DNA of 27,622 nt from a virus. A program made the translations under genes and the position numbers. The notes below the pieces were generated by a model, which made no database searches, had not been told where the DNA came from, and saw only the letters and a program-made list of their open reading frames with translations. How positions within the stretch are numbered: the first letter of the stretch is position 1; the number at the start of each line of letters is the position of its first letter. This document shows positions 504 to 18,271 of this stretch, in pieces. The stretch covers positions 1 to 27,622 of IMG/VR virus record IMGVR_UViG_3300048929_000771; one strand, given 5' to 3'.

Positions 504-532
504 ATTATACCACATTGTAGAAAGTAATTCAA
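504..532 (-). promoter_or_regulatory. Promoter of the repressor gene (leftward)
   Basis: Read on the minus strand there is TTGAAT (532-527), a 17-bp spacer, then a perfect TATAAT (509-504), about 20 bp upstream of the repressor ATG. The spacer contains a lone TGTAG half-site (515-519 on the plus strand) matching the outer arm of the operators, so weak autoregulation is possible. Confidence 0.8.
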
Positions 533-550
533 CAAATTTCGGATATACTG

Positions 551-579
551 TTGACAAAAGTTGGACAAGGGAGTATGAT
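551..579 (+). promoter_or_regulatory. Module 1 promoter (rightward)
   Basis: TTGACA (551-556), a 17-bp spacer and TATGAT (574-579) form a near-consensus sigma-A promoter driving the Cro-like gene and tail module 1. It is divergent from the repressor promoter. The predicted start of transcription (about 586) falls on operator A, so a bound repressor would block initiation or escape. Module 2 has the same geometry. Confidence 0.8.
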
Positions 580-585
580 AATGAA

Positions 586-604
586 TGTAGACGATATGAC
601 TACA
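586..604 (+). promoter_or_regulatory. Operator copy A (19-bp inverted repeat)
   Basis: TGTAGACGATATGACTACA is an interrupted palindrome (TGTAG...CTACA, with one mismatch in the 7-bp arms). It starts 7 nt after the -10 box of the module 1 promoter. Three further copies occur in the window, at 826-844, 14864-14882 and 15090-15108, all in tail-module leaders. Confidence 0.75.
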
Positions 605-616
605 AGGGAGGGCAAT

Positions 617-853
617 ATGACGGATACGGTTCGATTGAAGGAAGAAATCAAGCGATCCGGTCTGAAAAAAGGGTGGATAGCATTGGAATTGGGGTTGTCT
701 AGCTATGGCTTTCATCGAAAGATTAACAATGAGAGTGAATTCAAGGCCGGAGAGATTAAAAGTTTGTGCCAGCTTCTTAAGATTACATCATTGAAAAAGA
801 AAGAGGAAATTTTTTTTAATGATGGAGTAGACAAAATAACTACAAAAGATTGA
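617..853 (+). CDS. Cro-like small HTH regulator
   Basis: The protein has 78 aa, starting at ATG 617 behind the ribosome site GGGAGGG; an upstream in-frame ATG at 551-616 would overlap the promoter and operator and is unlikely. The helix-turn-helix lies around residues 8-50 (GLKKGWIALELGLSSYGFHRKINN), followed by FKAGEIKSLCQLLKI, a pattern seen in small clostridial prophage HTH proteins. It is the first gene behind the module 1 promoter and is flanked by operator copies A and B. Its last codons (GVDKITTKD) are written by operator B itself. By position it is likely a Cro/antirepressor-type partner of the leftward repressor. A decayed homologue lies at 14919-15135. Confidence 0.85.
   Translation: MTDTVRLKEEIKRSGLKKGWIALELGLSSYGFHRKINNESEFKAGEIKSLCQLLKITSLKKKEEIFFNDGVDKITTKD
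826..844 (+). promoter_or_regulatory. Operator copy B, inside the 3' end of the Cro-like gene
   Basis: AGTAGACAAAATAACTACA matches the other operators at most arm positions (GTAGAC...CTACA) and overlaps the last codons of the Cro-like gene. It sits about 222 bp after copy A; the corresponding gap in module 2 (C to D) is about 208 bp. No promoter is obvious next to it, so it may act in looping or as a roadblock. Confidence 0.65.
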
Positions 854-879
854 GGAGATGGAGAAAGGAGGATTAGGAG

Positions 880-891
880 ATGACAATTTAG
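880..891 (+). other. Three-codon mini-ORF behind a perfect Shine-Dalgarno
   Basis: AAAGGAGG (864-871) is followed, 8 nt later, by ATG ACA ATT TAG. The next gene (929) also begins ATGACAAT, so this may be a decayed or duplicated gene start, or a leader that loads ribosomes upstream of the first tail gene. No function is assigned. Confidence 0.35.
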
Positions 892-928
892 TATGTAACA
901 TTGCAAAAACGCAGGTTGGGAGAATGAA

Positions 929-1417
929 ATGACAATAAATGAGTTACAGCGTCTTTTGATTCAGGAAATAGAAGTTCTCACAAATGATATTTACATAACG
1001 GATACCAAGGGGGAACTAGTACCTTTAAAAGGATATCCACAAAATATTAATATGTCAGAATCTTATCAATCAGATATTCAGGAATCAAAAGATAAGTGGA
1101 TTCCATATTTCCTCGTTCGTATGGACAAGGCTGAGTACAGAAAGAAAGAGGCAGATGGAAGAAATCAGGCGCATTTATTTATAGAAGTAAATATATGCGA
1201 TTCGGAATATGATCGTAAAGGTTTCTATACACTTACAGCTATTTTGCAACGTATCATTAACCGTTTCCAAAAGCAATCTATTTTAGGAGCTTTTTGTTGT
1301 GATCAATCCATGAATCTGATTTTTCAAAAAGAGTATGAATTTCCTTATTATAAAGGAGAAGTTGAAATGTTCTGGAATCTTCCAGATATTCAATTGGAGA
1401 AATTCTATGAATCGTGA
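929..1417 (+). CDS. Pre-sheath tail protein, possible tail terminator (module 1)
   Basis: The protein has 162 aa with no membrane segments or signal peptide. The core (SKDKWIPYFLVRMDKAEYRK, then HLFIEVNICDSEYDRKGFYT) resembles a minor protein found just before the sheath gene in Clostridia myophages. Position between regulation and sheath, and the corresponding gene in module 2 (15166-15579, a tail-terminator family member), suggest a tail terminator/completion role that caps the tube. That role is inferred from context. The start ATG follows GGGAG with a 6-nt gap. Confidence 0.7.
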   Translation: MTINELQRLLIQEIEVLTNDIYITDTKGELVPLKGYPQNINMSESYQSDIQESKDKWIPYFLVRMDKAEYRKKEADGRNQAHLFIEVNICDSEYDRKGFYTLTAILQRIINRFQKQSILGAFCCDQSMNLIFQKEYEFPYYKGEVEMFWNLPDIQLEKFYES

Positions 1418-1658
1418 ATCGGTTATGTATGTAGGACCATCATTAGAACGCATTGTTCAAGAAGGAGCTGTGTTTCGAAATGGTTATCCGGAGAAATTTA
1501 AGCGTGTATTAAACAGTTATCCAATTTTACAAGATTTAATTGTGCCGGTGGAATCATTGGCTGAGGTAAAAAAGTCTATCAGGAATCCAGAGAGTGATAT
1601 TAGTATGGTTTACCGGAAGGCTGAAAAAATCAGGAGGGAAATTAATTATGTCATATAA
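1407..1658 (+). CDS. Small pre-sheath phage protein (module 1)
   Basis: The protein has 83 aa starting at ATG 1407 behind TTGGAG; the open frame extends to 1335 but that overlaps the previous gene extensively. It overlaps the upstream gene by 11 nt and the sheath gene by 11 nt, so translation is probably coupled. The sequence (MYVGPSLERIVQEGAVFRNG) is a conserved-looking hypothetical. It occupies the same slot as the YqzN/YkzM-like protein in module 2 but I see no convincing sequence similarity. Function unknown. Confidence 0.7.
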   Translation: MNRESVMYVGPSLERIVQEGAVFRNGYPEKFKRVLNSYPILQDLIVPVESLAEVKKSIRNPESDISMVYRKAEKIRREINYVI

Positions 1659-3111
1659 ACATGGTATTGAAGTAATTGAAAATAAAACATCGTTTCCAAA
1701 TCCCCTTTCAACCCGATATGGGGTGCAGGTAGTACTGGGAACTGCACCAGTAAATCTGGCTGAAAATCCGTATGATGTAGCAAATAAGCCTATTAAGGTA
1801 ACTAGTTTCGAAGATGCTGTTAAGTTATTGGGATACAGCGAGGATTGGAAAAGTTATACTCTTTGTGAAAGTATGTTCGCAAGCTTCAAGGTATTCCAGG
1901 TATCTCCGGTCGTATTTATTAATGTTCTTGATGCTAAAAAACATAATAAAAGTATCGAAGAAGCCAATTATGGTGTTGCAGGTCATCAGGTTGTTTTAAA
2001 TACTCCTGGCATTTTAAAAGATACCGTCAAAATAAACGTTGTTAAAGACGATGTTGTTACACTTATAGAGAATAAAGACTTTATTATGGACTTTAATGAA
2101 TCTGGTTATCTTGTGGTAACACTCCTTAAATCTGGTAAAGGTTATGATACAACTGATTTAAAAATCTCCTATAAGAAAATTGCACCTGATATGGTTATGG
2201 AAGAGGATTTAATTGGTTTCTATCAGGTGGATACTGGTGAAGAAACAGGAATGGAAGTGTTAAGACAGATTTATCCTAAATTCGGAATTGTTCCCGGAAT
2301 GCTTTTGGCACCGGGCTGGACCGAGAACCCTAATATTGGTGCTGCTCTGCAGTCAAAATGTGAAGGCATCAGTGGAATTTTCCGAACGATGTGCCTTTTA
2401 GACCTGGATACGAAAGAGGCAAGAAAGTATATTGACTGTCCTAATGTCAAAAAGGATATGGGATATGATGAAAAGCATTCCATCGTACTTTGGCCAAGAG
2501 TAACAAAAGATAAACGCCAGTTTAGTTTTTCTTCTGTATATGGTGCGATGATGAGTCATCAAACCGTATTGAATGGAGATGTTCCATATGTGTATCCATC
2601 AAATAAGCTTTTAAATGTTGATGGCGCCGTATTAGCAGATGGTACAGAGATCTTTTTGGATCAGATTCAGGCTGGAGAATTAAATGGAAATGGTATTGTG
2701 ACAGCACTTCATGACAATGGCTGGAAAGCTTTTGGTAACAATACAGGTTGTTATCCTCAAAATGATGATCCAAAAGATCGTTGGATTGGCTGTAGAAGAA
2801 TGTTTGATTTCGTGGCAAATTACTTCATTACTGTTTACCGTGCAAAACTTGATGAAGGTATGAACAAAAGACAGGTAGATGATATCATCAACAGCTTTAA
2901 TATCTGGGGTAACAGCCTTATGGCATCTGGCATGTGTGCAGGTTTGTATGCAGAGTATCGTAAAGAAGAAAATTCTATTACGGATATACTTGCCGGTCAT
3001 ATGAAAATCAGAATCCATTTTGCGCCATATACTCCAACCGAATATATCCAGGCATTGGAAGAATTTGATGTCACAACTTTTGAACGTGCAATGACAATGG
3101 GGGAAGAATAA
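1648..3111 (+). CDS. Contractile tail sheath protein (module 1)
   Basis: The protein has 487 aa and is a tail sheath of the P2 gpFI/clostridial type. It begins SYKHGIEVIENKTSFPNPLS and contains the central LGTAPVNLAE-type insertion seen in sheath N-domains. The C-terminal region (HMKIRIHFAPYTPTEYIQAL) is the conserved sheath core that contacts tube and neighbouring subunits. ATG 1648 behind AGGAGGG is preferred over the longer frame opening at 1594, which would lie inside the upstream gene. It is followed 2 nt later by the tube gene, the canonical sheath-tube pair, so the module encodes a contractile tail. It is only distantly similar to the 432-aa sheath of module 2. Confidence 0.93.
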   Translation: MSYKHGIEVIENKTSFPNPLSTRYGVQVVLGTAPVNLAENPYDVANKPIKVTSFEDAVKLLGYSEDWKSYTLCESMFASFKVFQVSPVVFINVLDAKKHNKSIEEANYGVAGHQVVLNTPGILKDTVKINVVKDDVVTLIENKDFIMDFNESGYLVVTLLKSGKGYDTTDLKISYKKIAPDMVMEEDLIGFYQVDTGEETGMEVLRQIYPKFGIVPGMLLAPGWTENPNIGAALQSKCEGISGIFRTMCLLDLDTKEARKYIDCPNVKKDMGYDEKHSIVLWPRVTKDKRQFSFSSVYGAMMSHQTVLNGDVPYVYPSNKLLNVDGAVLADGTEIFLDQIQAGELNGNGIVTALHDNGWKAFGNNTGCYPQNDDPKDRWIGCRRMFDFVANYFITVYRAKLDEGMNKRQVDDIINSFNIWGNSLMASGMCAGLYAEYRKEENSITDILAGHMKIRIHFAPYTPTEYIQALEEFDVTTFERAMTMGEE

Positions 3112-3112
3112 T

Positions 3113-3628
3113 ATGTTAAAACTTCAGTTAGTAAACAGATATACCGTATATAGAGGCGGTAAGGAATTAATCGGAACAGCAGAAGAAGTTAAGCTTCCGG
3201 AAATCACCAGTTTAACCGATACTGTTGGAGGTGCTGGTTTCGGAGGAAACATGACAATTCCAGTTATTGGACTGGTGGATGATATGGAAATGGAAATTCC
3301 ATTTATGTCATTATGCAACGATGTATTTTCTCTGATGGATCCTACTCAGACAGCAGACATCACATTAAATGGCGCCATTCAGGGAATGGATGGAGGAGAC
3401 GGCAGCGTTGGCTATAAACCGGTTTCAATTTCTGTTCGTGGTACTGTTAAGAAATTTGTTCCAGGATCTATGAAGTCTGGCGCAAAAATGGGATCAAGTG
3501 TTTCTCTCGGTCTTAGCTATTATAAGGTTGTATTGGATGGTAAAACAGTGCTTGAGATTGACAAGTTAAACGGTGTTTATGTGGTAAATGGAAATGATGT
3601 ACTTCGTGAAGTCAGAGATATGTGTTAA
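3113..3628 (+). CDS. Major tail tube protein (module 1)
   Basis: The protein has 171 aa and belongs to the P2 gpFII-like tail tube family: an N-terminal VNRYTVYRGGKELIGTAEEV strand pattern followed by a glycine-rich loop (TVGGAGFGGNMTIPVIG). Subunits stack as hexameric rings to form the rigid inner tube driven through the target envelope when the sheath contracts. The gene follows the sheath by 2 nt. Its 3' end overlaps the open frame of the next gene, but the chaperone's likely start is at 3640. It differs clearly from the 157-aa XkdM-type tube of module 2. Confidence 0.92.
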   Translation: MLKLQLVNRYTVYRGGKELIGTAEEVKLPEITSLTDTVGGAGFGGNMTIPVIGLVDDMEMEIPFMSLCNDVFSLMDPTQTADITLNGAIQGMDGGDGSVGYKPVSISVRGTVKKFVPGSMKSGAKMGSSVSLGLSYYKVVLDGKTVLEIDKLNGVYVVNGNDVLREVRDMC

Positions 3629-3639
3629 GGAGAAAAGCT

Positions 3640-3984
3640 ATGGAAAAAGATAAAAAAGCAACAGAGACAGCGCAGGCAGACACGACTCTAGAGTGGATGA
3701 TGTTGAAGTTAAAGATGCCAGTAGAGTATCAAGGAATCAAGGTTGATCAGCTGGATTTATCTGGTATGGATACATTGACAGGGCGCGATTTAAATGCAGT
3801 CTATGATCTGTATGCCAATATGGGGGGAAGTGGCATTATCATGCAGGAAGCTACGCTGTTATTTGCACAGTTGATTGCATCTAAGGTTACTGGATTTCCA
3901 TTAGAGCTGTTTTATGTTTTAAGAGCAAGCGATTCAGTCAAGCTTAAGAACCGGGTATATCGTTTTTTCTTCCTAGAGGGATAG
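3640..3984 (+). CDS. Tail assembly chaperone, short form (gpE-like)
   Basis: The protein has 114 aa, starting at ATG 3640 behind TAAGGAG. It is the P2 gpE-type tail assembly chaperone: small, soluble, between tube and tape measure, with the pattern VEYQGIKVDQLDLSGMDTLT near residue 30. It should bind the tape measure protein and tube subunits during assembly and be absent from the finished particle. Near the 3' end the frame reads CGT TTT TTC, giving the slippery heptamer T TTT TTC at 3963-3969; a -1 slip there yields the long form (next entries). Confidence 0.85.
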   Translation: MEKDKKATETAQADTTLEWMMLKLKMPVEYQGIKVDQLDLSGMDTLTGRDLNAVYDLYANMGGSGIIMQEATLLFAQLIASKVTGFPLELFYVLRASDSVKLKNRVYRFFFLEG

Positions 3985-4002
3985 GCTGCCCCGAAGATAT
4001 CC
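3963..4002 (+). promoter_or_regulatory. Programmed -1 ribosomal frameshift signal (module 1)
   Basis: The heptamer T TTT TTC (3963-3969) is in the correct zero-frame phase of the gpE-like gene. Nine nt downstream is a possible stimulatory stem, GGATA (3979-3983) with TATCC (3998-4002). The zero-frame stop TAG lies at 3982-3984, and the -1 frame is open for 61 codons after the slip. This matches the P2 E/E' and lambda G/GT strategy. Confidence 0.8.
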
Positions 4003-4154
4003 GAAAGGTAAACAAGGCATTTATTTTTGCGGGTCGGTATTCCAAAGCCGGCCCGGAATTCTACTTCTCCCTTCCTTTAAGTCAAGCAGCCAGGTTAGTT
4101 AAAGATGTGGCGGAAACGGCCAGGGAAGAAAGCAGAGAAAGAAAGATGAGGTGA
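3969..4154 (+). CDS. Frameshift extension of the tail chaperone (gpE'-like)
   Basis: This open segment has no credible start of its own and is reached by a -1 slip at 3963-3969. It adds 61 residues (beginning LPRGIGCPEDIRKVNKAFIF, later GPEFYFSLPLSQAARLVKDV, with a charged R/E-rich tail) to give a fusion of about 171 aa. It ends at TGA 4152-4154, 7 nt before the tape measure ATG. In P2 and lambda-type phages the long form is made at a low ratio and binds the tape measure protein, while the short part contacts tube subunits. The absence of stops over 61 codons exactly behind a slippery site is the main evidence. Confidence 0.8.
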   Translation, partial: LPRGIGCPEDIRKVNKAFIFAGRYSKAGPEFYFSLPLSQAARLVKDVAETAREESRERKMR

Positions 4155-4161
4155 TGATATC

Positions 4162-4437
4162 ATGTCAGATATAAGTGAAAAGCTTGAACAGGCGAAGAAG
4201 ATTATGGATAAGGTAGATCCATATCTTAATGCCGCCGCTGATAAGACCACAGAGTTTTTGAAAGATTCTGTTAAAGCTGGAATGAAATTAGAATCTCAGA
4301 TGAGCTCTTTAAAGGTAGTTACAAAATCCTCTTCCTCTGAAATGGAGCGTCTTTATTCTATCGCAATTAAAATGGGAAAAACGACAGGTTTTTCTTCCGT
4401 TGATGCGAGTGAAGAAATGGAGCGCTTGGCGCGGGCT
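4162..4437 (+). CDS. Tape measure protein, exon 1 (module 1)
   Basis: This encodes the first 92 residues of the tape measure protein and ends at ...EEMERLARA. The next nucleotides are an in-frame TAA, and homologous sequence resumes at 4751 with GWKAEDM. The usual family sequence in this region (TIGR01760-type N-terminal domain) reads continuously through A-G-W-K-A-E-D-M, so the gene is split here, not truncated. The start ATG 4162 follows GAGGTGATGAT. Without splicing only a 92-aa fragment would be made. Joined to exon 2 the protein is 1063 aa. Confidence 0.85.
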
Positions 4438-4750
4438 TAACATCATCGGGCCGGCTGTATAGAAATATACAGCGCATACTGGGGAAATTCGGTAAACGCT
4501 AAAATAGTAAATACCATACTATCATGCCAATACCGAGAGAACTGCGGATCAGGCAGTTTTTGTAACGCATAGGAATTGAGCGCTATGAGAGCAAAAATAT
4601 TCCCAAGAGTCTCCGGCACGATTGTCTTAAGGACAATCTGCGATAGCACGCCGCTATCAAACCTAACGTAGGACGAGGGTGATAATATATGCTGAACTTG
4701 CAGGAAACTGCAAGAAGTAAGGGATAAAAAGCCTTTACGATAACAAGATG
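4438..4750 (+). ncRNA. Group I intron in the tape measure gene (no internal ORF)
   Basis: This 313-nt insertion fits group I rules. The last exon base is U (4437) and the last intron base is G (4750), and removal gives GCT|GGA with the tape measure frame restored. An internal guide at 4449-4455 (GGCCGGC) pairs with the end of exon 1 (U-G wobble at the splice site, 6 of 7 positions). CATC (4444-4447) pairs with GATG of exon 2 (4752-4755) as P10. A perfect P2-like hairpin lies at 4454-4460/4467-4473. A P4-like pairing is TTCGGT (4488-4493) with ACCGAG (4532-4537) flanked by AAACGCT. A possible P3 is 4480-4486 with 4600-4605, and a P8-like hairpin is 4621-4626/4632-4637. P7 is not assigned with certainty. 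No endonuclease, reverse transcriptase or transposase is encoded. An IStron-derived intron is an alternative. Confidence 0.72.
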
Positions 4751-7666
4751 GGATGGAAAGCAGAGGATATGCTAAAGGGATTGCCAGGGGTAATGAATCT
4801 GGCAGCGGCCTTTGGAGAAAATCTAGGAAGTGTTTCAGGGATTGTGACAGACACTATGGCTTCCTTTGGAATACAGGCGGGTGATTCTGCACAAATGGTA
4901 GATGTTCTTGCCCAGGCATCAATACATTCAAATTCCAGTTTGGATATGATGGGGAAGGCGTTACAAAGAGCGGCTCCTGTCGCTTCTGCGTTTGGCTACA
5001 GCGTAAACGATGTGGCATTAGCAGCAGGACTTATGGCAAGTGCAGGAATTCAGGGTGAAGAGGCTGGCATGTCTATGAAGGCCATATTTGCAAATTTAGC
5101 AGTTCCTTCAAAAAATGCAGAACAATACATGAGCAAGCTCTCCATTTCTTTAAAGGACAGCACCGGTAAAGTAAAACCATTAAGTAAGATGATTGATGAA
5201 TTGCGAAAAGGCTTTTCTGGTCTGTCAGCGGCACAAAAAGAAGAGTACGCGGCTGGCATTGCTGGAAAAGAAGGAATGAGCGGATTACTTGCTATTATGA
5301 ATGGTTCCGATCAGGAATTTCTGAAGCTAAAAGAGGCAATGGATCACAGCGCAGGTGCAGCAGAAAGATTATCTGAGATTCGTTTGGACAACTTGCAAGG
5401 GGATATTTCTCTTTTTCAAGGAACATTAGATAGCGTAAAGCTTGGTATTTTTAGTGGGATTTCCGGGGAATTAAGAGAACTTGCACAGAATGCAACCGTG
5501 TGGCTGTCTGGGGTTGGAGAGACCTTAGAGGATAATCTTCCAACCATACGAAGAAAAGTTCAGGAGTTTACAGGTGGAATAAAAGATTCATTTGGGCCGG
5601 TTATGGAAGTAGGAAATTGGTTCATGAAGCACTCAGATATAATGATTGGTGGAGTCGCAGGAATTGCCACTGCATTTGGAACTATGAAAGGAATTAGTGC
5701 AGGTGTGACTTTGGCAAAGAATTTTTCTCTGTTAATAGAGGCTTGGCCAGTCGCATTAGGTGCATTAGCAATCGGAACCATAGTGGGGATTGGGGTTGCA
5801 ATTAAAGAGCATAACGAAAAACTTCGGAAAGAAGATTTGGCTCAAAGATTTGGTGACATCAAATTATCTGCAGAAGAATTAGATCAAACGGCGAAGATGA
5901 TTCTTAATAATGGTAATTTAAAAGGTCTGACAGTTGCAGCAAGTGAAATTGAAAAGATTAAGGGATTATCAAAGGATTTCAACAATGCCGGTGATAATGT
6001 TGAAATGATAAACTGGAAGGTAAGTATTGGTCTTGAGCTTAATGAGAGTGATTTGGAGTCATACAAGTCATCGGTAGAAGAAATGATAAAGGGCTCTATT
6101 GACATCGTGGAACAGGCACGTTATACCACAAGAATCAGTACCAAGGCATTATTTGTAAATGACAATGAAACTGGGGAAGAGTTGATTAATGGCTTTAACA
6201 CTACATATAATTCCATCAGTGAAGAACTAAATGGTCTTGGAAAAAAGGCTGGGGAAAAATTAAGTGAAGCTATTGTAGATGGCGTTGCCAATCCAGAAAT
6301 GATGAAAGATGTAGAAAAAATTGTTGACGAGATGCGGTCCATTACCAATGAGGTAGCTAATGCAAAGACTGATGCAAAGCTCAAACGAATCCGAATGCAG
6401 TTTTCTGGAAAAGATCTAGATTCGGAATCGTTTCAGAATCTACAGGCTCAGATGAAGAAAGAGCTGGAAGAGCAAAACAATTTAAGAATGGAATCCGTGG
6501 ATTGGGATCTGGCTATGTTAGAAACTCAGTTGAACCGCGGAGATATTAGTGTCCAAGAGTACAAAGAAAAACAGCAGCAAATCAATAAGGCAAATGAAGA
6601 TCAGGAGTTAGCCCAGCAGGCAAGGAGTGTATCTTTTTCAACTAATACAATTGCAGATTCATATCAGGACGAAATTTCAGGGATGCTGCCAAAGGTAAAA
6701 GTGGGAATGGACGAAGCTATGGCAAATATTAGCCATGGGAATATAAATGCATTTGACTCAAATTATCTCTGGAAAAAAATGGGATTCAATGAGATGGATG
6801 ACAAGACTCTTGGTAATATCTCAGTGCTATGGGAAAATATGGAGTCGGACTATAGGCAACTTCAGTCTACCGTTAATGATTATTTGCAAAGGGGAGTTGA
6901 AGTACCAGCCGACATTGCAAAACAATTTTCTGATGCCTCTTTTATTGGTGCGGCAGCAAAGGACCCAAGTGCGATCAATCAAATGATGGCAATTAATGCT
7001 GCGGACAACCCAGAATACCGTGCGGCAATTGAGCAGGCAAGAGCAAATGGAGTAGAGGTACCAGAGGAATTTGCAACATACTTGGACAATAATGGGCCTG
7101 TAATTAAAGATGCAATTGGAAGACTTCGTGATGTCGCGGACACAGAAATAAATGATAAATTCCATAACATACCCGTTAATGGAACAGTTACTGCTAATTT
7201 TAGCTTAAATTCATTATATACCCCCAAATTACTGCCAGATATATCGCCTGAATTATCAACAGGAAAAACATTTCAAAATTACGCATTAAGAAATATTAAG
7301 CAATATGCCAAGGGCGGTCTAATCAGTGAGCCAACTCTATCCTGGTTTGCAGAAGAAGGGCCAGAGATGGCGATTCCTATCAACAACTCAAAACGTTCCG
7401 TCTCTCTCTGGCAGCAAGCTGGGCAATTAATTGGAGCTTACGAAGAAAACAACTACGGAAAAATGTATGATTCCATGGTTTCATCTGGCTCTCAAGTACT
7501 AAATGAAAATAGTTCTTCCTTTGCTCCTGTCTTTAGTCCAACTGTTTATGTTAATGGCAAAAAAGCCTCACAAGAAGAGGTAACAGGCGCAGTGCAAATG
7601 ACGTATGAGCAGTTTAAAGAATGGGCCGTGCAGTTTAAACATGAGCAGTACCGGGTTTCATTTTAG
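4751..7666 (+). CDS. Tape measure protein, exon 2 (module 1)
   Basis: This encodes residues 93-1063 of the tape measure protein. It starts with the conserved GWKAEDMLKGLPGVMNLAAA of the phage tail tape measure core. A hydrophobic stretch lies at about residues 388-442 (MIGGVAGIATAFG to ALAIGTIVGIGVAI), followed by long helical, charged segments. The C-terminal region contains YAKGGLISEPTLSWFAEEGP, a motif common at the end of these proteins. The protein spans the tube lumen, sets tail length and is ejected on contraction. An ATG at 4748 overlapping the 3' splice site would give an N-terminally truncated product without splicing, but no good ribosome site precedes it. Confidence 0.9.
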   Translation, partial: GWKAEDMLKGLPGVMNLAAAFGENLGSVSGIVTDTMASFGIQAGDSAQMVDVLAQASIHSNSSLDMMGKALQRAAPVASAFGYSVNDVALAAGLMASAGIQGEEAGMSMKAIFANLAVPSKNAEQYMSKLSISLKDSTGKVKPLSKMIDELRKGFSGLSAAQKEEYAAGIAGKEGMSGLLAIMNGSDQEFLKLKEAMDHSAGAAERLSEIRLDNLQGDISLFQGTLDSVKLGIFSGISGELRELAQNATVWLSGVGETLEDNLPTIRRKVQEFTGGIKDSFGPVMEVGNWFMKHSDIMIGGVAGIATAFGTMKGISAGVTLAKNFSLLIEAWPVALGALAIGTIVGIGVAIKEHNEKLRKEDLAQRFGDIKLSAEELDQTAKMILNNGNLKGLTVAASEIEKIKGLSKDFNNAGDNVEMINWKVSIGLELNESDLESYKSSVEEMIKGSIDIVEQARYTTRISTKALFVNDNETGEELINGFNTTYNSISEELNGLGKKAGEKLSEAIVDGVANPEMMKDVEKIVDEMRSITNEVANAKTDAKLKRIRMQFSGKDLDSESFQNLQAQMKKELEEQNNLRMESVDWDLAMLETQLNRGDISVQEYKEKQQQINKANEDQELAQQARSVSFSTNTIADSYQDEISGMLPKVKVGMDEAMANISHGNINAFDSNYLWKKMGFNEMDDKTLGNISVLWENMESDYRQLQSTVNDYLQRGVEVPADIAKQFSDASFIGAAAKDPSAINQMMAINAADNPEYRAAIEQARANGVEVPEEFATYLDNNGPVIKDAIGRLRDVADTEINDKFHNIPVNGTVTANFSLNSLYTPKLLPDISPELSTGKTFQNYALRNIKQYAKGGLISEPTLSWFAEEGPEMAIPINNSKRSVSLWQQAGQLIGAYEENNYGKMYDSMVSSGSQVLNENSSSFAPVFSPTVYVNGKKASQEEVTGAVQMTYEQFKEWAVQFKHEQYRVSF

Positions 7667-7674
7667 GAGGGCAT

Positions 7675-7878
7675 ATGGAAAATATATATAAAACTGTTCA
7701 GGGAGACACCTGGGATTTAATTGCTAAAAAGGTCTACGGGTCAGAAATACATCTGGATCACTTGATGAAGCATAACTTTTCATTGCTGGATTATTTTATA
7801 TTTCCTGCAGGTATTAAGGTGTTAACACCTGAGGTACCCCTAAAAGGAGCGAAAGGAATTCCAGAATGGAGAAAGTAA
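7675..7878 (+). CDS. Tail protein X (P2 gpX-like, LysM-like)
   Basis: The protein has 67 aa with the compact gpX/LysM-like fold: YKTVQGDTWDLIAKKVYGSE at the start and FPAGIKVLTPEVP near the end. P2 gpX is a small baseplate-hub protein needed for tail completion. ATG 7675 follows AGGAGGG, 8 nt after the tape measure stop. It is the P2-order counterpart of the larger XkdP-type protein in module 2. Confidence 0.85.
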   Translation: MENIYKTVQGDTWDLIAKKVYGSEIHLDHLMKHNFSLLDYFIFPAGIKVLTPEVPLKGAKGIPEWRK

Positions 7879-7899
7879 AGCAGGAAGGGAGGGATAACT

Positions 7900-9135
7900 A
7901 TGAGCGGAGTTAGAAAAAAGTATTTAAGTATTATCTACAATGGGGTTGAGGTTTGGCAAGATCTATCGGAATACATACAAAATTACTCCTATGATGATTC
8001 ATTAGACCAATCAGATACTATTTCAATAACATTAAGCGACAGGGATCTAAAATGGAGCAGGACGTGGTTGCCAGAAAAGGGAGATGTAATTACCCCAACT
8101 ATTATTCTTGAGAATTGGAATGAGGAGGGGGAAAAAATGACTGTCCCATGTGGAACTTTTCTGGTGGATGATTTTTCCTTCTCTTCCCCTCCCTTTACTT
8201 GTACCATCAATGGTGTTTCTGCTCCTGTTAATACATGTTTTAAAGAAACAGAAAATACAAAAACATGGGAATCTGCCACTGTAAGATTAATTGCTGGGGA
8301 ACTAGCAGGAAAATATGGATTGGAGCTTATATACGAGTCCACCGAAGAAATACAGGTTGCAAAAATAGAGCAGGATAAGCAATCAGATAGTGATTTTCTA
8401 AAAAACATTTGTGAAAAATACGGAATGGGATTAAAAGTGTATTCCAATAAACTCGTGATTTGGGACTTGAAGCAGTATTTTGAAAAAGCCCCAGTGCTTA
8501 TGATTCGTCCTGAAATGGTATCAAAGTGGACCTATAACAGTACCATGCAAGGGGTATATACGGGAGTGAAGGTCAGCTATACAAATCCTGGAAACAGTAA
8601 AACAGTTGATGTAATGGTAGGAACGGAAGAGCGTCTTTATAAAACCAATCAGAAAGTAGATAATGAGGCAGATGCTAGGCGGATCGGAGAGAGTGTATTA
8701 CGAAATGCCAACCGAAAAGAACGTAAATTGAAACTAACTTTACCACCAAAGATGTCATTATTTGCAACTGCCAATATTCAATTATCAGGTTTTGGAAATC
8801 TGGATGGGATATATTTTGTAGAAAAGATCTCCCATAGCTTGTCGGGAAAATCATACGATATGCAGGTCAGTCTAAGCTGTATATCTCAGGATAACGAGAA
8901 AAAGGATTCGGCATCAAAGGTGGATGATGCAAACAAGAGCGGCAGCCAATATACGGTGCTAAAAGGTGACAGTTTGTGGAATATTGCGAAACAGTTTTAT
9001 GGCAATGGAACCAGGTGCGAAGACATCTATGAGTCAAATAAACAAATGATTGAAACTGAAGCAAAGAGGCGGGGAAAAACGGATTCTAACCATGGATATT
9101 GGATCTACCCTGGTATGGATCTTCAAATTCCATGA
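7900..9135 (+). CDS. Baseplate hub protein (P2 gpD/XkdQ-like) with C-terminal LysM
   Basis: The protein has 411 aa. Residues about 1-330 follow the late-control D / T4 gp27-like hub family (SGVRKKYLSIIYNGVEVWQD near the N-terminus; later KWSRTWLPEKGDVITPTI and GIYFVEKISHSLSGKSYDMQ). After a serine/lysine-rich linker, about residues 347-411 form a LysM domain (YTVLKGDSLWNIAKQFYGNG ... YWIYPGMDLQIP). The hub trimer joins the tube to the spike. The LysM could bind peptidoglycan or act only structurally. The P2 gpD family usually lacks a LysM; here the domain organisation combines hub and XkdP-like LysM. Start ATG 7900 follows GGGAGGG. Confidence 0.85.
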   Translation: MSGVRKKYLSIIYNGVEVWQDLSEYIQNYSYDDSLDQSDTISITLSDRDLKWSRTWLPEKGDVITPTIILENWNEEGEKMTVPCGTFLVDDFSFSSPPFTCTINGVSAPVNTCFKETENTKTWESATVRLIAGELAGKYGLELIYESTEEIQVAKIEQDKQSDSDFLKNICEKYGMGLKVYSNKLVIWDLKQYFEKAPVLMIRPEMVSKWTYNSTMQGVYTGVKVSYTNPGNSKTVDVMVGTEERLYKTNQKVDNEADARRIGESVLRNANRKERKLKLTLPPKMSLFATANIQLSGFGNLDGIYFVEKISHSLSGKSYDMQVSLSCISQDNEKKDSASKVDDANKSGSQYTVLKGDSLWNIAKQFYGNGTRCEDIYESNKQMIETEAKRRGKTDSNHGYWIYPGMDLQIP

Positions 9136-9148
9136 AAGGAGTTTTCGT

Positions 9149-9562
9149 TTGAATGATGTAATTCGAATAGGAAGAATTTCTTCTGTTAATCCAGTGAGTG
9201 CTATGGCCAGGGTGTATTATCCAGACAGAGACAGCACCACATCGGAACTTGCATTATTTGGTTATCATGGGGAATTTAAGCTTCCTAAAGTAAATGATCA
9301 GGTAGTAGTGCTTCATCTGCCCAATGATACCAGTTCAGGAATTATTCTGGGGAGCTTTTGGAATGAGACGGATAAGCCTCCCAGGGAGGTAGAATACAAA
9401 AAAGATTTAGGGACCGGGGCTTATGAGGTGATAAAGGATGGTAATTATATTCTGCATTCACCCCAAATTACAATGGAAAGCGAAGCTGAATCCATTACCT
9501 TATCTGACTTGCTGGAGATGAAAAAGAGGTTGGAAGAATTAGAGAGGAGGTTGACGACATGA
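9149..9562 (+). CDS. Baseplate spike protein (gpV-like)
   Basis: The protein has 137 aa, starting at TTG 9149 behind GAAAGGAG; the open frame runs back to 9050 but inside the hub gene. It has the OB-fold of phage spike proteins near residues 3-75 (DVIRIGRISSVNPVSAMARV, then HGEFKLPKVNDQVVVLHLPN and SSGIILGSFWNE). A short beta-rich segment (GAYEVIKDGNYILHSPQITM) and a C-terminal helix (LLEMKKRLEELERRL) follow. It should trimerise under the hub as the membrane-piercing tip. No metal-binding HxH tip motif is evident. It overlaps the next gene by 4 nt (ATGA). Confidence 0.85.
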   Translation: MNDVIRIGRISSVNPVSAMARVYYPDRDSTTSELALFGYHGEFKLPKVNDQVVVLHLPNDTSSGIILGSFWNETDKPPREVEYKKDLGTGAYEVIKDGNYILHSPQITMESEAESITLSDLLEMKKRLEELERRLTT

Positions 9563-9948
9563 TTGGTCTTTTAGGCAACTTAAGATTTCGGGTAAATGAT
9601 AATAAAGCTTTTACATTTCAAAACATGAGAAGAGAGATATCAGCTTCATGGAATTCTATGGAGAGAATCGGACAAAAACCCATTTCAGAGTTTGGCGGGG
9701 CCAGTTTACAGACTCTTTCTCTTGAAATTACTTTAGATGCTTCTCTGGGAGTAAAACCAAGACGGCTTTTAGGGGATCTGGAACGAATGACAGAATCCGG
9801 AGAAGCCAATAAATTGGTTATTGGAAGAAAAATGGTGGGGAAAAACAAGTGGGTGATCACAAAATGCTCTGAAGCTTGGGAGGTAATACTAAGAGGTGGC
9901 GAATTATATCGCGCAAAAGTAACTTTATCATTGCAGGAATATTTATGA
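9559..9948 (+). CDS. Tail protein U-like (P2 gpU family)
   Basis: The protein has 129 aa. It contains FTFQNMRREISASWNSMERI, GGASLQTLSLEITLDASLGV and the R-rich motif PRRLLGDLERM, which are characteristic of the P2 gpU tail protein family. In P2, gpU is required for tail completion; in Clostridia phages it is found between hub/spike and baseplate wedge genes as here. Translation is coupled to the spike gene by the ATGA overlap. Confidence 0.85.
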   Translation: MIGLLGNLRFRVNDNKAFTFQNMRREISASWNSMERIGQKPISEFGGASLQTLSLEITLDASLGVKPRRLLGDLERMTESGEANKLVIGRKMVGKNKWVITKCSEAWEVILRGGELYRAKVTLSLQEYL

Positions 9949-9958
9949 GGTGTCAGAT

Positions 9959-10258
9959 ATGGAACAATACGAACTATCTTTGCTGGACATAAATGAAGAG
10001 GTGGCTGAAGAATTAAAGCGGAATCTAACTACTTTGTTTGGAACGAGAGCAGGAACCCAGCCCATTGACAGGGAGTTTGGAATTTCCTGGGAGTGCCTTG
10101 ATGAACCTCCTGATGTTGCGGAAAGCTTATTTTATCTTGAAGCGTGCAAAAAAGTGGATCAGTACGAGCCAAGGGTTTTAATTGAAGATATCTCATTTGA
10201 GAAAAGAGAAGGGGTTATGATCCCCCGTATCTATTTTAAAAGGAAGGAGGAAATCTAA
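9959..10258 (+). CDS. Baseplate wedge protein (gpW/gp25-like)
   Basis: The protein has 99 aa. It carries the gp25/lysozyme-like baseplate motif NLTTLFGTRAGTQPIDREFG, which includes the conserved G-T-R and P-x-D-R-x-F-G elements. Despite the domain name these proteins are structural, linking the wedge to the sheath/hub. ATG 9959 with GAGGTG 8 nt upstream is preferred over GTG 9950. It ends 1 nt into the start of gpJ (TAATG). Confidence 0.88.
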   Translation: MEQYELSLLDINEEVAEELKRNLTTLFGTRAGTQPIDREFGISWECLDEPPDVAESLFYLEACKKVDQYEPRVLIEDISFEKREGVMIPRIYFKRKEEI

Positions 10259-11406
10259 TGGAGAGTTTTAAAAATAGATTTTCTGATTATCCGGAAGTCA
10301 GCTTTATTGAAAATACCAGCTTTATTGATTTACAAACTAGGATGATTGAAGATTATGAAAATAAATACAAAGAGCTGACAGGCAAAAAACAATCTCTTGC
10401 AATGGCAGATCCGTACCGTCTCATTCTGTATTCTTGTGCAGCAGCTATATATCAGGGATACCAGTATGAAGATAGGGCTGCAAAGATGGGGTTATTAAAG
10501 TATAGTACTGGCGAATTCCTTGATAACTTAGCTGCATTTAAGAAAGTAAAAAGAAATGAAGCATCTCCGGCAAGGACGATCATTCGTTTTACTTTATCAA
10601 CATCAGTTGAAAGAAAAATCGTGATACCAAAGGGAACCAAAGTGAAAGGTCCTGAGCTGTATTTTGAGACTACTAGTGTTGGTGAAATTCCACAAGGAAA
10701 GCTTTATGTAGATATACCAGCAAAATGCCGAGTAAATGGTATTGTTGGAAATGGTTATGTACCTGGAGAAATCAGGACACTTACAGATCTTCTCCCGTAT
10801 ACGCTTAAGGTATCAAATATTACCCAAACGAGTGGAGGCACAGACGGAGAAACTGATGAGGAATTGGCTGAACGGATTTATTTGGCACCTGTCAGCTATT
10901 CCACTGCAGGACCACAAAAAGCATATGAATATTGGGTGAAGACCTTTAGTCCGTCTATCGGGGAATGCCGAATCACATCGGAATCTCCTGGAGAGGTGGA
11001 TATCTACATAACTATGGCTGATGGCTCTGTTCCTGATGAAGGATTCTTAAATGAATTAGAAGATTATTTAAGGAACAGTAGTATAAGGCCCTTGACCGAT
11101 CATGTTGTTGTAAAAAGACCCCAAACGGTGGAGTATGACATTGAACTTCATTATTATATCAGAAATGAAGATAGGGATAAGGAAGAAACCATTAAGGCTG
11201 CAATTCAGAATGCATGCAATAATTATATCTTGTGGCAGAAGAAGGTAGGCAGAGATATCAATCCATCTCAATTAATCTACGAGGCAATGGGGACGGGAAT
11301 AAAAATGGCTGAAGTAATAAAGCCTATATTTACAGAAATACCGGATTCTTCTATGGCGATACCAGGTAAAATCAATTTGGTTTATGGAGGACGTAAGGAT
11401 GATTGA
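10258..11406 (+). CDS. Baseplate J-like protein (gpJ)
   Basis: The protein has 382 aa of the Baseplate_J family. An N-terminal helical region (DLQTRMIEDYENKYKELTGK) leads to the fixed motif GEFLDNLAAFKKVKRNEASP, a beta section (IVIPKGTKVKGPELYFETTS), and the GGTDGETDEELAERIYLAP signature near residue 200. It builds the wedge ring together with the gp25-like and gpI proteins and triggers sheath contraction. The start overlaps the previous stop, and its 3' end overlaps the gpI start by 8 nt. Confidence 0.92.
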   Translation: MESFKNRFSDYPEVSFIENTSFIDLQTRMIEDYENKYKELTGKKQSLAMADPYRLILYSCAAAIYQGYQYEDRAAKMGLLKYSTGEFLDNLAAFKKVKRNEASPARTIIRFTLSTSVERKIVIPKGTKVKGPELYFETTSVGEIPQGKLYVDIPAKCRVNGIVGNGYVPGEIRTLTDLLPYTLKVSNITQTSGGTDGETDEELAERIYLAPVSYSTAGPQKAYEYWVKTFSPSIGECRITSESPGEVDIYITMADGSVPDEGFLNELEDYLRNSSIRPLTDHVVVKRPQTVEYDIELHYYIRNEDRDKEETIKAAIQNACNNYILWQKKVGRDINPSQLIYEAMGTGIKMAEVIKPIFTEIPDSSMAIPGKINLVYGGRKDD

Positions 11407-12337
11407 TTTTTATCATGGTGAAATAACAGACATCATGCCATATAATCTTATTTCTCCTGAAACTAAGGCTCTAAGTTATGCAGTCAGCCAGGCAATGAAA
11501 CGGCTAAAGGACTTTTCAAATGCCTGTCACATGTATGGCGAACTAAGCAAAGTACCGGAACCTATTCTGGATTTAATGGCCTTAGAGCTAAATACCCAAT
11601 ACTATGACCAGACCATGCCAAGAAAGCTAAAGGAGCAATTGCTCACACAAACTACTGCCTGGTATATGCATGCAGGAACTCCGGAAGTGCTTAGAGAGTT
11701 TTTAGGTACCGTATTAGAGGGAGGTAAGATACGTGAGTGGTATGAATATGGGGGCAATCCGTTTTTCTTCAAAGCAAAAGTTGAGGTGGGGGAGCACGAT
11801 ATTCCCCTAGGATATGGAGTTGAAGTAAAAAGGCAGATTGAACTATATAAGAACGCTCGCTCTTGGTTGGAGCACGTTGCATTTATAATTCGTTCCAGAA
11901 GTTATTGTGACGTGAGCCTTGCAAATGCAGTGCGATTCAGGGGTAGATTTTATCCGAGACTGAATGCTCCGATATTAAAATTAGATGGTATCTGGAATCT
12001 ATCAGGGAAAAAGTTGAGTGGGTATGACAGTGATGTAAAGATAGATTTTTATCCTGTAGGACAGAGCTATAAATTACAGGTTTCAGAAAATGTGAGTTTT
12101 AAGGAAATTTTCCGTAGTTCCTATTCGGCAAGGGTTTTAGCAGATACCAGAGAAAAAATCAGACTGCTCAGTCAGATTAATCTAAAAGCTGATGAAAGTA
12201 ACAGTCTCACTATTAAAACAAGTGTTTGTGTTGGACTTAGAGCAGGGAGTGTAAGAGTAACTACTTGTAATCCGTTATCAGGAGAATGGAAACTTGATAA
12301 GGATAGGAACTTAAATGGCGGGCTTTCAATTTTGTAG
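11399..12337 (+). CDS. Tail protein I-like baseplate/fibre connector (gpI)
   Basis: The protein has 312 aa from ATG 11399 behind GGAGG; the frame also opens at 11384. Residues about 1-180 match P2 gpI: LMALELNTQYYDQTMPRKLK and the following AGTPEVLREFLGTVLEGGKI element. P2 gpI is about 175 aa, so the last roughly 130 residues (LANAVRFRGRFYPRLNAPIL onwards) are an extension, probably beta-rich, that could dock the fibres. It anchors fibres to the wedge. Confidence 0.85.
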   Translation: MIDFYHGEITDIMPYNLISPETKALSYAVSQAMKRLKDFSNACHMYGELSKVPEPILDLMALELNTQYYDQTMPRKLKEQLLTQTTAWYMHAGTPEVLREFLGTVLEGGKIREWYEYGGNPFFFKAKVEVGEHDIPLGYGVEVKRQIELYKNARSWLEHVAFIIRSRSYCDVSLANAVRFRGRFYPRLNAPILKLDGIWNLSGKKLSGYDSDVKIDFYPVGQSYKLQVSENVSFKEIFRSSYSARVLADTREKIRLLSQINLKADESNSLTIKTSVCVGLRAGSVRVTTCNPLSGEWKLDKDRNLNGGLSIL

Positions 12338-12379
12338 TATTTATAATTAGATGATTAGTAGAAGAAAGGGAGAAAGATT

Positions 12380-12775
12380 ATGGCAGATAATTCAAACGGT
12401 GTAATGACCGTTATAGCTAGAAAAAAGTTATGCAAAGCACATGCCGGTGACCAGCAGCTATCTAAGATCACTAGTATCGCATGGGGAAATGGTGGTGTGG
12501 ACGAGAATGGAATTCCAAAAAAAACTACAGGTAATGAGATTGCTCTTTATAATGAATTACTTAAAAAAGAGATTGAAACACATGTCTATGTAAATACAGA
12601 AAATACAAGCTGTCGTTATACTGCAACGTTAGGAGCAGGTGAATTAACTGGAGAAGAAATATCTGAAATGGGACTATTTGATGAAGATGGGGATTTGGTT
12701 GCTTACCGTACATTTTTAAGAAAAGGAAAAGATGAGGATATTCCACAGATTTATGATATGGATGAAATATTTTAA
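12380..12775 (+). CDS. Tail-collar fibre N-terminal-type protein (module 1)
   Basis: The protein has 131 aa resembling the phage tail-collar fibre family (DUF3751-type): NGVMTVIARKKLCKAHAGDQ, then ITSIAWGNGGVDENG, and ISEMGLFDEDGDLVAYRTFL near the end. In long P2-type fibres this domain is the N-terminus that attaches to gpI; here it is a stand-alone protein, so the receptor-binding part must come from the following genes. ATG 12380 follows AAGGGAG. Confidence 0.75.
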   Translation: MADNSNGVMTVIARKKLCKAHAGDQQLSKITSIAWGNGGVDENGIPKKTTGNEIALYNELLKKEIETHVYVNTENTSCRYTATLGAGELTGEEISEMGLFDEDGDLVAYRTFLRKGKDEDIPQIYDMDEIF

Positions 12776-12787
12776 GGAGGTATCGTG

Positions 12788-13207
12788 ATGGCATTTTGTG
12801 ATATGAAAAATCCTCCGGAGTTTTCAACTGAGGTAAGAAAATGGGACAGGGAAACGTTGGCGGATGGTCAGGAATTGGCTGTTGAGATTGAGCAGTTATT
12901 TAATAATACATTATATAACAAGTCTCTTAATGAAAAACTTAGAAATAAAAGGGAGTTGTTGCTTAAAGCTGATGGCTGGAGTGGCAATGGGCCATATTCA
13001 CAAACTCTGGTAGTTGCTGGTATAAAGGTTGAAGAAGAGCCAGAGCTAGGAAAAGCTCTTAAAGGAACAGAGACGATAGAGGAAGTGAAAGCTTACAACA
13101 AAGCTTTTGGGTTAATATATCACGGTGAAGTACGGAACGGAGAAGTGGTATTTCAGGCATATAAAAAGCCTGCTCTAGATATTCCATTATTGTTGAAAGG
13201 AGTGTAG
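12788..13207 (+). CDS. Fibre/baseplate-associated protein (module 1)
   Basis: The protein has 139 aa, starting at ATG 12788 behind AAGGAGG. The N-terminus is helical (TLADGQELAVEIEQLFNNTL). The C-terminal half has the pattern LLLKADGWSGNGPYSQTLVV ... PALDIPLLL, a small beta-domain that recurs in clostridial phage fibre and upper-fibre proteins. It is probably a linker segment of the fibre assembly. Exact role unknown. Confidence 0.65.
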   Translation: MAFCDMKNPPEFSTEVRKWDRETLADGQELAVEIEQLFNNTLYNKSLNEKLRNKRELLLKADGWSGNGPYSQTLVVAGIKVEEEPELGKALKGTETIEEVKAYNKAFGLIYHGEVRNGEVVFQAYKKPALDIPLLLKGV

Positions 13208-13210
13208 AAA

Positions 13211-14251
13211 ATGGGTAAATTATGGATCCCTGGCGGTGGTTCAGGTTCTGGCAGTGGGAGCGATGAATGCACTGCCTCAAAGTCAGAAGTGTTAAAAGGT
13301 TATAGTGCGGTTACTTTAGATTCTGATGATGAACCAGTACAGGGTACACTAGAACTGACAGCAGATGCTAGCGATGGTCAGGTACTCTCAGGTAAGACGT
13401 ATTATAATACAGATCCTAAGAAAAAGAGAACTGGTTCTATGGCGAATCAAGGAGCTGTTTCTGTAAAACTTAATGCTGGGGAAGGCTATACCATTCCTTC
13501 TGGATTTCATAATGGGGGAGGAAAAGTTGAGGCGAATGGATTGGCGAGTCAGACGCCTGGGAATGCAACGGCAGCACATATTTTAAGTGGGCAGTCGGCT
13601 TGGGTGAATGGTAATAAGATAAATGGGGGAATTCCTTGGCAGAATGCTGAGATATCAGGCACTGATCGTGCATGGGCTCAAGGAATGTCTAATTGGGCTG
13701 GTACGATAAATTTGAAGGTTAGAAATGGCCATTATTTGAATGGGGTTAATTGGATTCAGCAGGATATTCCTAATTATCGTCCAGAAAATATAAAAAAAGG
13801 TGTTAATATTGGAGGAATTGTCGGTACTTTTGAGGGATATGTACCTGGCGCTACAGACTTGTATCTTAGAGGTAATAATATTGCTAATTTTAATGCGTAT
13901 ATAGATTCTTCTATTGATAGTGGATCATATATTAAGTTTGATTCTGGACAAATAACATTTACCGGTTATAGTAGACTTAGTAACAATATAGCAGCACTTG
14001 TTAATTTAACGGGTTACAATTTTGTAAACGTTGAAGTTGCCAATACTTATTTTCATACAATTGCTCTTGCAATAACGGAGAACCTAAGCGTCTATAGACC
14101 AATCGCTTTAGTTAAAGGGGTAAACGGGGTAACGGGCACAATCACATTATCATTAAACGTTTCAGCACTTAACGCAACAAGATATGTTAGGGTTATACGT
14201 GACGCAGAAACAAACGGTACTTTCTATATTTATAGAATTTGGCTAAGTTAA
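13211..14251 (+). CDS. Tail fibre / receptor-binding protein (module 1)
   Basis: The protein has 346 aa. It starts with a glycine/serine linker (IPGGGSGSGSGSDECTAS). Repetitive fibre units follow, each with the theme 'turn on/keep G-x-T-x-Y ... G-S-M/G-I' (for example VLSGKTYYNTDPKKKRTGSM, and ILSGQSAWVNGNKINGGIPW), common in clostridial fibre shafts. The C-terminal part (about residues 215-346, from GATDLYLRGNNIANFNAYID) is beta-rich, more AT-rich in base composition than the shaft, and is the likely receptor-binding head. That shift in composition suggests exchange of the head by recombination. The host receptor cannot be read from the sequence. Confidence 0.75.
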   Translation: MGKLWIPGGGSGSGSGSDECTASKSEVLKGYSAVTLDSDDEPVQGTLELTADASDGQVLSGKTYYNTDPKKKRTGSMANQGAVSVKLNAGEGYTIPSGFHNGGGKVEANGLASQTPGNATAAHILSGQSAWVNGNKINGGIPWQNAEISGTDRAWAQGMSNWAGTINLKVRNGHYLNGVNWIQQDIPNYRPENIKKGVNIGGIVGTFEGYVPGATDLYLRGNNIANFNAYIDSSIDSGSYIKFDSGQITFTGYSRLSNNIAALVNLTGYNFVNVEVANTYFHTIALAITENLSVYRPIALVKGVNGVTGTITLSLNVSALNATRYVRVIRDAETNGTFYIYRIWLS

Positions 14252-14265
14252 AAAGGAGACGCATA

Positions 14266-14670
14266 ATGAAAATATACACAGATAATGATTATAAAATCGT
14301 AGCTCTTGATATTGAACCAGCACATTTTGAATACTTATTTGAGGTTGATGAGGATAAATCTGAAATGTTTGGTAATTGGTGTGATACCTGCATTAGAGGT
14401 TATAAATATGAGCCTCAATTCGAAATGTCATTTGATAACGACGGTACACACCTGAGGGATGAGATAACAGGGGAATTCATGTATAAATTAGACAAGTATA
14501 ATGGGAAAAAAATTTCCGGATTCGCATGCTATCCATACATCGATTACCATACACTTGTACTGATCCAGAAACAGTACGAAGACTCCCAGAAACAGGTCCA
14601 TGTTCTCAACAATCAGATAGAGTATTTATCAATGATATCAAATATCGAAATGGATGTAAGTCATGAGTAA
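14266..14670 (+). CDS. Fibre-associated phage protein (module 1)
   Basis: The protein has 134 aa, starting at ATG 14266 behind AAAAGGAG. It contains EMFGNWCDTCIRGYKYEPQF, GFACYPYIDYHTLVLIQKQY and a C-terminal coiled segment (DSQKQVHVLNNQIEYLSMIS). I recognise this as a conserved type in Lachnospiraceae phages next to fibre genes, probably a small fibre tip/chaperone-like protein in the XkdW/XkdX position. Function not established. It is the last gene of module 1. Confidence 0.65.
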   Translation: MKIYTDNDYKIVALDIEPAHFEYLFEVDEDKSEMFGNWCDTCIRGYKYEPQFEMSFDNDGTHLRDEITGEFMYKLDKYNGKKISGFACYPYIDYHTLVLIQKQYEDSQKQVHVLNNQIEYLSMISNIEMDVSHE

Positions 14671-14770
14671 GTTTGATAAGATAGATTGTTTTTACTAATC
14701 TGTAGTATGCGCTATAGGAATGGCCCCCAATTTTGTTCAACCACATAGACTTCGACCTATTTATAAAAGA

Positions 14771-14799
14771 TTGACAATTTTTTTTATATGATATTATAG
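14771..14799 (+). promoter_or_regulatory. Upstream candidate promoter of module 2
   Basis: TTGACA (14771-14776) is followed by an extended -10, TG at 14789-14790 and TATTAT at 14792-14797 (15-bp spacer), or by TTATAG at 14794-14799 with a 17-bp spacer. It lies about 60 bp before the better promoter. No operator overlaps it, so it might provide separate, unrepressed expression of module 2. Confidence 0.5.
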
Positions 14800-14829
14800 A
14801 AATGTATTAAATATATATTTACCTTATTC

Positions 14830-14858
14830 TTGACATAATAGGTGTATAGGTGTATTAT
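14830..14858 (+). promoter_or_regulatory. Module 2 promoter
   Basis: TTGACA (14830-14835), a 17-bp spacer and TATTAT (14853-14858) sit 5 nt before operator copy C. The arrangement duplicates that of the module 1 promoter and operator A almost exactly, so the two tail modules should respond to the same regulator. Confidence 0.78.
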
Positions 14859-14863
14859 ATAAA

Positions 14864-14882
14864 TGTAGACGTAAAGACTACA
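14864..14882 (+). promoter_or_regulatory. Operator copy C
   Basis: TGTAGACGTAAAGACTACA differs from copy A only in the central 5 bases region. It covers the predicted start of transcription of the module 2 promoter. Confidence 0.75.
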
Positions 14883-14918
14883 AAAACGTTTTAAGTAATA
14901 CTAGTTGGTTAATAAAAA

Positions 14919-15135
14919 ATGTTAGAAGATACAGTTATAAAAAGTAAACAATATTATAATTATGTGTATTATTGATAGTTCACTAAAAAGTAGAATCAAA
15001 TATTGGTATATAGTAAAAAATAATAGCCTATGACAACTTCTTAAGATTACGCAGTTGAAAAAGAAACAGGAAATTTTTTTTACTCACAATGTAGACAATA
15101 AGACTACAAAAATGGAGAACAAATGGACCGAATAA
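14919..15135 (+). pseudogene. Decayed copy of the Cro-like HTH gene
   Basis: The segment aligns by eye with the Cro-like gene at 617-853. It begins ATG ... GATACAGTT (compare GATACGGTT after the intact start). The clearest match is the 3' part: CTT CTT AAG ATT ACG CAG TTG AAA AAG AAA is nearly the same as in the intact gene, and the frame ends ...EIFFTHNVDNKTTKMENKWTE at TAA 15133-15135. A codon equivalent to TGC in the intact gene is TGA (15031-15033), and the middle is largely unalignable and full of stops. No product is expected. It lies between operators C and D just as the intact gene lies between A and B. Confidence 0.7.
15090..15108 (+). promoter_or_regulatory. Operator copy D
   Basis: TGTAGACAATAAGACTACA is a full copy of the 19-bp operator. 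It occupies the 3' end of the decayed HTH gene, corresponding to copy B in the intact gene, and lies about 60 nt before the first gene of module 2. Confidence 0.75.
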
Positions 15136-15173
15136 CTGGTGGCAACATGGCAAAGGAGGTCGTAAGTGTATAA
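15123..15173 (+). other. 16-codon mini-ORF overlapping the module 2 first gene
   Basis: ATG 15123 reads 16 codons (MDRITGGNMAKEVVSV) to TAA 15171-15173, overlapping the GTG start of the tail terminator gene at 15166 by 8 nt. The AAAGGAGG site for that gene lies inside it. It could couple translation to the leader or be a chance ORF. Confidence 0.3.
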
Positions 15174-15579: not shown

Positions 15580-15592
15580 AAGAGGTGCAGTT

Positions 15593-17082: not shown

Positions 17083-17099
17083 GAAAGGGGAGATGAATT

Positions 17100-17573: not shown

Positions 17574-17602
17574 AGATTAAAGATAAAAAGGAGATTAAAG
17601 TT

Positions 17603-18213: not shown

Positions 18214-18271
18214 TGTGGAAGAACGTCCAAAGGGCGTTCTTCCTATCATAATAGGAAAGGAGGAGATAGGT

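Follow-up and report, generated by a model that had tools for sequence, protein, structure and literature searches.

How are two different phage-tail modules, 14 kb apart, brought under common control? The window analysed here is a 27,622-base IMG/VR record. Its first three positions hold the stop codon of a divergently oriented XRE repressor gene, and it goes on to two contractile tail modules and a shared lysis end (Table 1). The amidase call is based on PF01510, the holin-like call on position and relatives. No head, terminase or integrase genes were seen in the window, although it is truncated on either side. A gene set of tail, holin and endolysin without these three is that of a tailocin, and this is what the gene order of L120/L121 and of the fixed loci in relatives shows. 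Each module leader contains two copies of one 19-bp operator. Judged on sequence, the four sites are very probably two OL/OD pairs of a single TP901-1-like CI/MOR switch, under which both tail modules, the holin and the amidase would be expressed together as a two-particle tailocin locus.

Table 1. Features of the window, with positions counted from its first base
Feature	Position	Strand	Details
XRE repressor, CI-like, HTH_3	4-483	-	PF01381 E=8.5e-13; recognition helix GYKSRSSINKIE; stop codon 1-3
Repressor-gene promoter	504-532	-	TTGAAT-N17-TATAAT
OR-like palindrome	517-533	.	GTAGAA-AGTAA-TTCAAC; overlies -35 of divergent repressor promoter
Leader-1 promoter	551-579	+	TTGACA 551-556, N17, TATGAT 574-579; 6 nt to O1
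O1 (OL analogue)	586-604	+	TGTAGACGATATGACTACA; on expected transcription start
Small HTH protein, Cro/MOR-like, 78 aa	617-853	+	weak DUF739 match, below cut-off; relatives
T8 tract inside cro/mor-like gene	810-817	+	9 nt before GTAGAC of O2
O2 (OD analogue)	826-844	+	AGTAGACAAAATAACTACA; 3' end of cro/mor-like gene
Tail module A, P2-like contractile	929-14670	+	sheath 1648-3111, tube FII 3113, tape measure 4748, gpU 9559, baseplate J 10258, gpI 11384, fibre 12380
Leader-2 promoter	14830-14858	+	TTGACA 14830-14835, N17, TATTAT 14853-14858; 5 nt to O3
O3 (OL analogue, module B)	14864-14882	+	TGTAGACGTAAAGACTACA
cro/mor-like 3'-end remnant	15030-15089	+	alignment to L014 leader; T8 at 15074-15081
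O4 (OD analogue, module B)	15090-15108	+	TGTAGACAATAAGACTACA
Tail module B, PBSX/Xkd-like	15166-25708	+	terminator 15166, sheath 15784, tube 17100, tape measure 18161, LysM 20848, baseplate J 23208
Shared lysis end	25991-27622	+	holin-like 25991-26410; amidase 26702-27622

Operator sites and promoters in the window

A scan of the window returned the four 19-bp sites exactly where a sequence-only reading of this DNA had placed them, and its claim that there are no further copies holds as well: GTAGACN5RACTACA gives four exact matches, all on the plus strand, against none for the reversed pattern used as a control and a calculated chance expectation of about 0.002. The next-best matches, at 12589 and 13970, have three mismatches each, which is chance level. 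The promoter geometry described in that reading applies to O1 and O3, which follow TTGACA-N17-TATNAT after 5-6 nt, and not to O2 and O4, which do not lie on a promoter. At the latter two sites GTAGAC is found 9 nt after a T8 tract; O2 falls in the 3'-terminal part of the cro-like gene itself, and O4 comes after what is left of one. A weak TTGAAA-N18-TTTAAT can be made out there in the window, but the O2 sites of relatives have no promoter, and a second promoter at O2/O4 was rejected.

The OR-like palindrome was absent from the earlier list of sites; it is related to O1-O4 but weaker. Of the 38 distinct promoter-operator leaders, 35 keep its pattern, GTAGA(A/T)-N5-TTCAAC, whose half-site differs from that of OL/OD and is shared in part. 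The three leaders without it are those without an adjoining repressor gene. Upstream of O3, at 14771-14797, TTGACA and TATTAT are separated by a 15-nt gap and followed by no operator. This stretch of leader 2 is a possible extra promoter and could be a source of unregulated expression.

Distribution in relatives and chromosomal locus

The spaced operator pair is present in 24 viral contigs. Relatives of the Cro-like protein have it beside them, as do those of the XRE protein apart from four distant ones. Searching all genome_contigs for the promoter-operator pattern yields 17 loci, 15 of them labelled Lacrimispora, Clostridium or Hungatella and two from MAGs labelled Paenibacillaceae. When the scan was run beyond phage genes on 17 related genomes (3-6 Mb), the exact motif proved not to be common elsewhere: 32 of its 34 hits fall in close pairs, with one pair per genome in 16 of the 17 Lacrimispora-type genomes, against 13 scattered hits for the reversed control pattern. 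Wherever the surroundings were read, the pair sits at the tailocin locus, which adjoins gpr/rpsT in seven genomes and holA/comEC on the other flank in the three genomes where that side was read.

In relatives, one repressor-cro leader type precedes either module A or module B. Loci L006-L026 and L120-L129, with A or B behind the same switch, have the appearance of a cassette exchange site in Lacrimispora-type genomes. Module A followed by B in tandem is seen in the window and in two other records (G018, G019); this tandem arrangement is new. An M78 peptidase gene (PF06114 in L120) adjoins the repressor in relatives, at a position outside the window.

Generality of the operator layout

Searching with Cro-like proteins of this type gave 74 loci from viruses, along with several named phages. 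On 72 loci of this cro family we performed a blind de novo search for a palindrome that occurs both upstream of cro and at its 3' end. A score of 16 was reached in 37 of 72 loci, compared to none of the 72 when a control region was used; with a clear pair in only these 37, either the layout is not universal or the search is incomplete. The operators differ among loci (GTAGAC, GTAGAT, GTAGAA, GTTGAA, TGTGAA and others) yet agree between O1 and O2.

Several further properties were considered and dismissed. The O1-O2 spacings, from 149 to 254 bp, show no clean phase, contrary to a fixed helical phasing. The left-right asymmetry conserved in the Lacrimispora site might have pointed to an oriented function, but the sites in relatives are symmetric, so asymmetry is not required. 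Conservation of O2 as a protein motif (VDKxTT) also fails: its codons are invariant, and the site outlives loss of the cro frame, as in L020 (T9), L051 (T7) and both L053 and L063 (TAA in cro).

Comparison with known systems

In the lactococcal phage TP901-1, CI acts at OR, OL and OD, the last located in distal mor, and the same topology is reported from many phages of lactococci and streptococci, although their operators differ in sequence (PMC7250872). The CI of the staphylococcal phage phi13 binds all three of its own operators (OL, OD, OR) in vitro (PMC8516035). The sequence record of TP901-1 shows an OL-OD distance of 248 bp, OD positioned 9 nt after a T7 at the mor end, and a metallopeptidase gene adjoining cI, as in the relatives of the window. 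The window shares with these phages the divergent CI and small HTH protein and an operator at the lytic promoter whose half-site recurs in a second operator in distal mor, about 240-250 bp away (240 in the window); its palindrome at the repressor promoter may correspond to OR. It differs in operator sequence, in controlling tail modules without a phage genome, and in having a second OL/OD pair without cI/mor at a second module 14 kb away. The similarity of the small protein itself is weaker: DUF739 (MOR) is matched with E=0.0055 and 17.3 bits (cut-off 27), and identity to TP901-1 MOR is 28% over 50 aa. A search of solved structures with both HTH proteins gave no useful match. Overall, these findings carry the TP901-1 operator layout beyond the phages of lactic acid bacteria, into phages of clostridia and fusobacteria and into a tailocin locus whose chromosomal place is fixed.

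The R/F pyocin clusters of Pseudomonas aeruginosa likewise encode two phage-tail particles under one regulatory circuit (PrtR/PrtN) with a common lysis cassette. There, however, the activator PrtN is under the repressor PrtR, whereas in the window the repressor operators lie directly on the tail promoters; moreover, both window modules are of the contractile type. With PBSX-type defective prophages and clostridial R-type tailocins (diffocin) the locus shares the Xkd order of module B and the holin and amidase at the end, without head genes. It differs from these in its fixed site between gpr/rpsT and holA/comEC of Lacrimispora-type genomes, its exchangeable A or B module and its TP901-1-like switch.

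The T tract before the distal operator

In 34 of 37 loci, T tract and O2 are separated by 9 nt, and a T7 or T8 occurs in 47 of 48 non-redundant cro/mor-like genes (the window, the mor end in L137 and most of L157-L224). The terminal Phe-Phe codons are TTT in 86 cases and TTC in 4, compared to 65 TTT and 38 TTC in the rest of these genes (Fisher 1.6e-8), and the Ile ahead of them is ATT in 41 of 43 cases against 118 of 256 elsewhere (1.9e-10). This bias towards TTT and ATT indicates that the tract is held at the nucleotide level. A limited literature search found no description of a T tract ahead of OD, which is weak evidence that the T7-8 tract and its nucleotide-level conservation are new.

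Our guess is that polymerase stalled by an occupied OD pauses or is released at the tract. A broader proposal, possible though rather doubtful, is that T7-8-N9-OD might be a composite element of CI/MOR-type switches in Firmicutes and Fusobacterium phages that acts as a switchable terminator: OD-bound repressor would halt leaking polymerase at the T tract and release it, and the tailocin locus would have copied the element, so placing its second weapon under the same repressor. In any case the conserved tract ahead of OD is now exposed and its role is directly testable.

Which protein reads the operators

Across phages, the distance between operators tracks the recognition helix of CI (Mantel r=0.51, p=0.0002; partial 0.49) but barely that of Cro (r=0.21; partial 0.11, p=0.08), where the Mantel test does not remove shared ancestry and the p-values are approximate because related sequences are not fully independent. 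Asn in the CI helix goes with GTAG half-sites in 21 of 22 cases and Ala or Thr with other half-sites (GTTG/GTGA types) in 8 of 8 (p=1.5e-6, equally approximate), which points to the XRE (CI-like) protein as the most likely binder of the sites. The residue concerned is the counterpart of Asn34 in the window repressor, and its pairing with the half-sites amounts to a simple rule of specificity. The resulting table of recognition helices and operators allows prediction of repressor sites. The small Cro-like protein could have been the main binder instead, in the way lambda Cro acts on CI operators, as it has an HTH-like region and is encoded between O1 and O2. We consider this unlikely given the weak Cro correlation once CI is accounted for, the inefficient DNA binding of TP901-1 MOR alone (PMC7250872) and the retention of the sites in second leaders that have lost cro; a MOR-type anti-repressor is the more likely role.

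These second leaders, three in number, have neither an adjoining repressor gene nor an intact cro, and all keep the promoter, O3, O4 and the T7/T8-N9 ahead of O4. Alignment clearly identifies leader 2 of the window as the remnant of a full L014-type leader, so the shared sites might merely be leftover homology from one ancestral leader with a functionless second pair. We regard this as improbable: in the promoter-O3 stretch the functional positions match the L014 leader at 25/25, 24/25 and 25/25, but the other positions at 16/29, 16/29 and 22/29, and the cro body has been shortened in a different way in each. Retention of the operators could nevertheless partly reflect a recent origin. Hardly credible is a role of the sites as RNA hairpins in the leader transcripts, for translation control or as a frameshift signal (U UUU UUN, 9-nt spacer, hairpin). 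O1 does lie just ahead of the ribosome-binding site and the T8-spacer-palindrome resembles a -1 frameshift signal, but the predicted hairpins are weak (-1.8 to -3.0 kcal/mol), O1 begins at about the transcription start and the operator type tracks a DNA-binding helix. The frames past the T tract are not conserved (median of 4 residues in -1), and programmed -1 frameshifting was rejected for lack of a conserved product. Control of both modules by one regulator, as the sequence-only reading had held, thus is the best reading, supported by a locus-specific pair in all but one of the related genomes, by its persistence in three regulator-less leaders and by covariation of operator and repressor helix.

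Proposed mechanism

The XRE repressor would occupy O1 and O3 at the transcription starts and thereby block initiation. Binding to O2 and O4, about 240 and 226 bp downstream, would give stronger repression, probably by looping or as a roadblock to leaking polymerase, and through the weaker 517-533 site the repressor would tune its own promoter. In response to a presumed induction signal it would be lost or neutralised, probably via an ImmA-like peptidase (encoded beside the repressor in relatives) and the Mor-like protein. Modules A and B, the holin and the amidase would then be expressed jointly, presumably yielding active tailocins. With the four sites as landing sites of one phage-type repressor, a Lacrimispora-like bacterium probably turns on both of its phage-tail weapons together. 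Reuse of one repressor-site pair would explain the joint control of two different phage-tail particles.

Origin of the second leader and related loci

Leader 2 was also considered as an in-place duplicate of leader 1, which was rejected on its greater likeness to the L014-type leader; judging from this likeness, two loci were probably joined by recombination. Another contig (L051/L087, IMGVR_UViG_2526164529_000011) has two operator-pair leaders separated by about 4.3 kb; the second of them, which precedes module B, has a cro-like gene of its own. A single promoter-operator match in a contig without related genes (L086, IMGVR_UViG_3300044779_000004) is probably due to chance. An orphan O2-like site after a T7 tract, with a cro-like remnant, lies among non-tail genes in L122/L103 (G003 contig 8, 301720). 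Finally, in Lacrimispora celerecrescens 152B (L130, G016) the repressor, one exact operator, the holin and the amidase are found within about 2 kb, and the tail module is gone.
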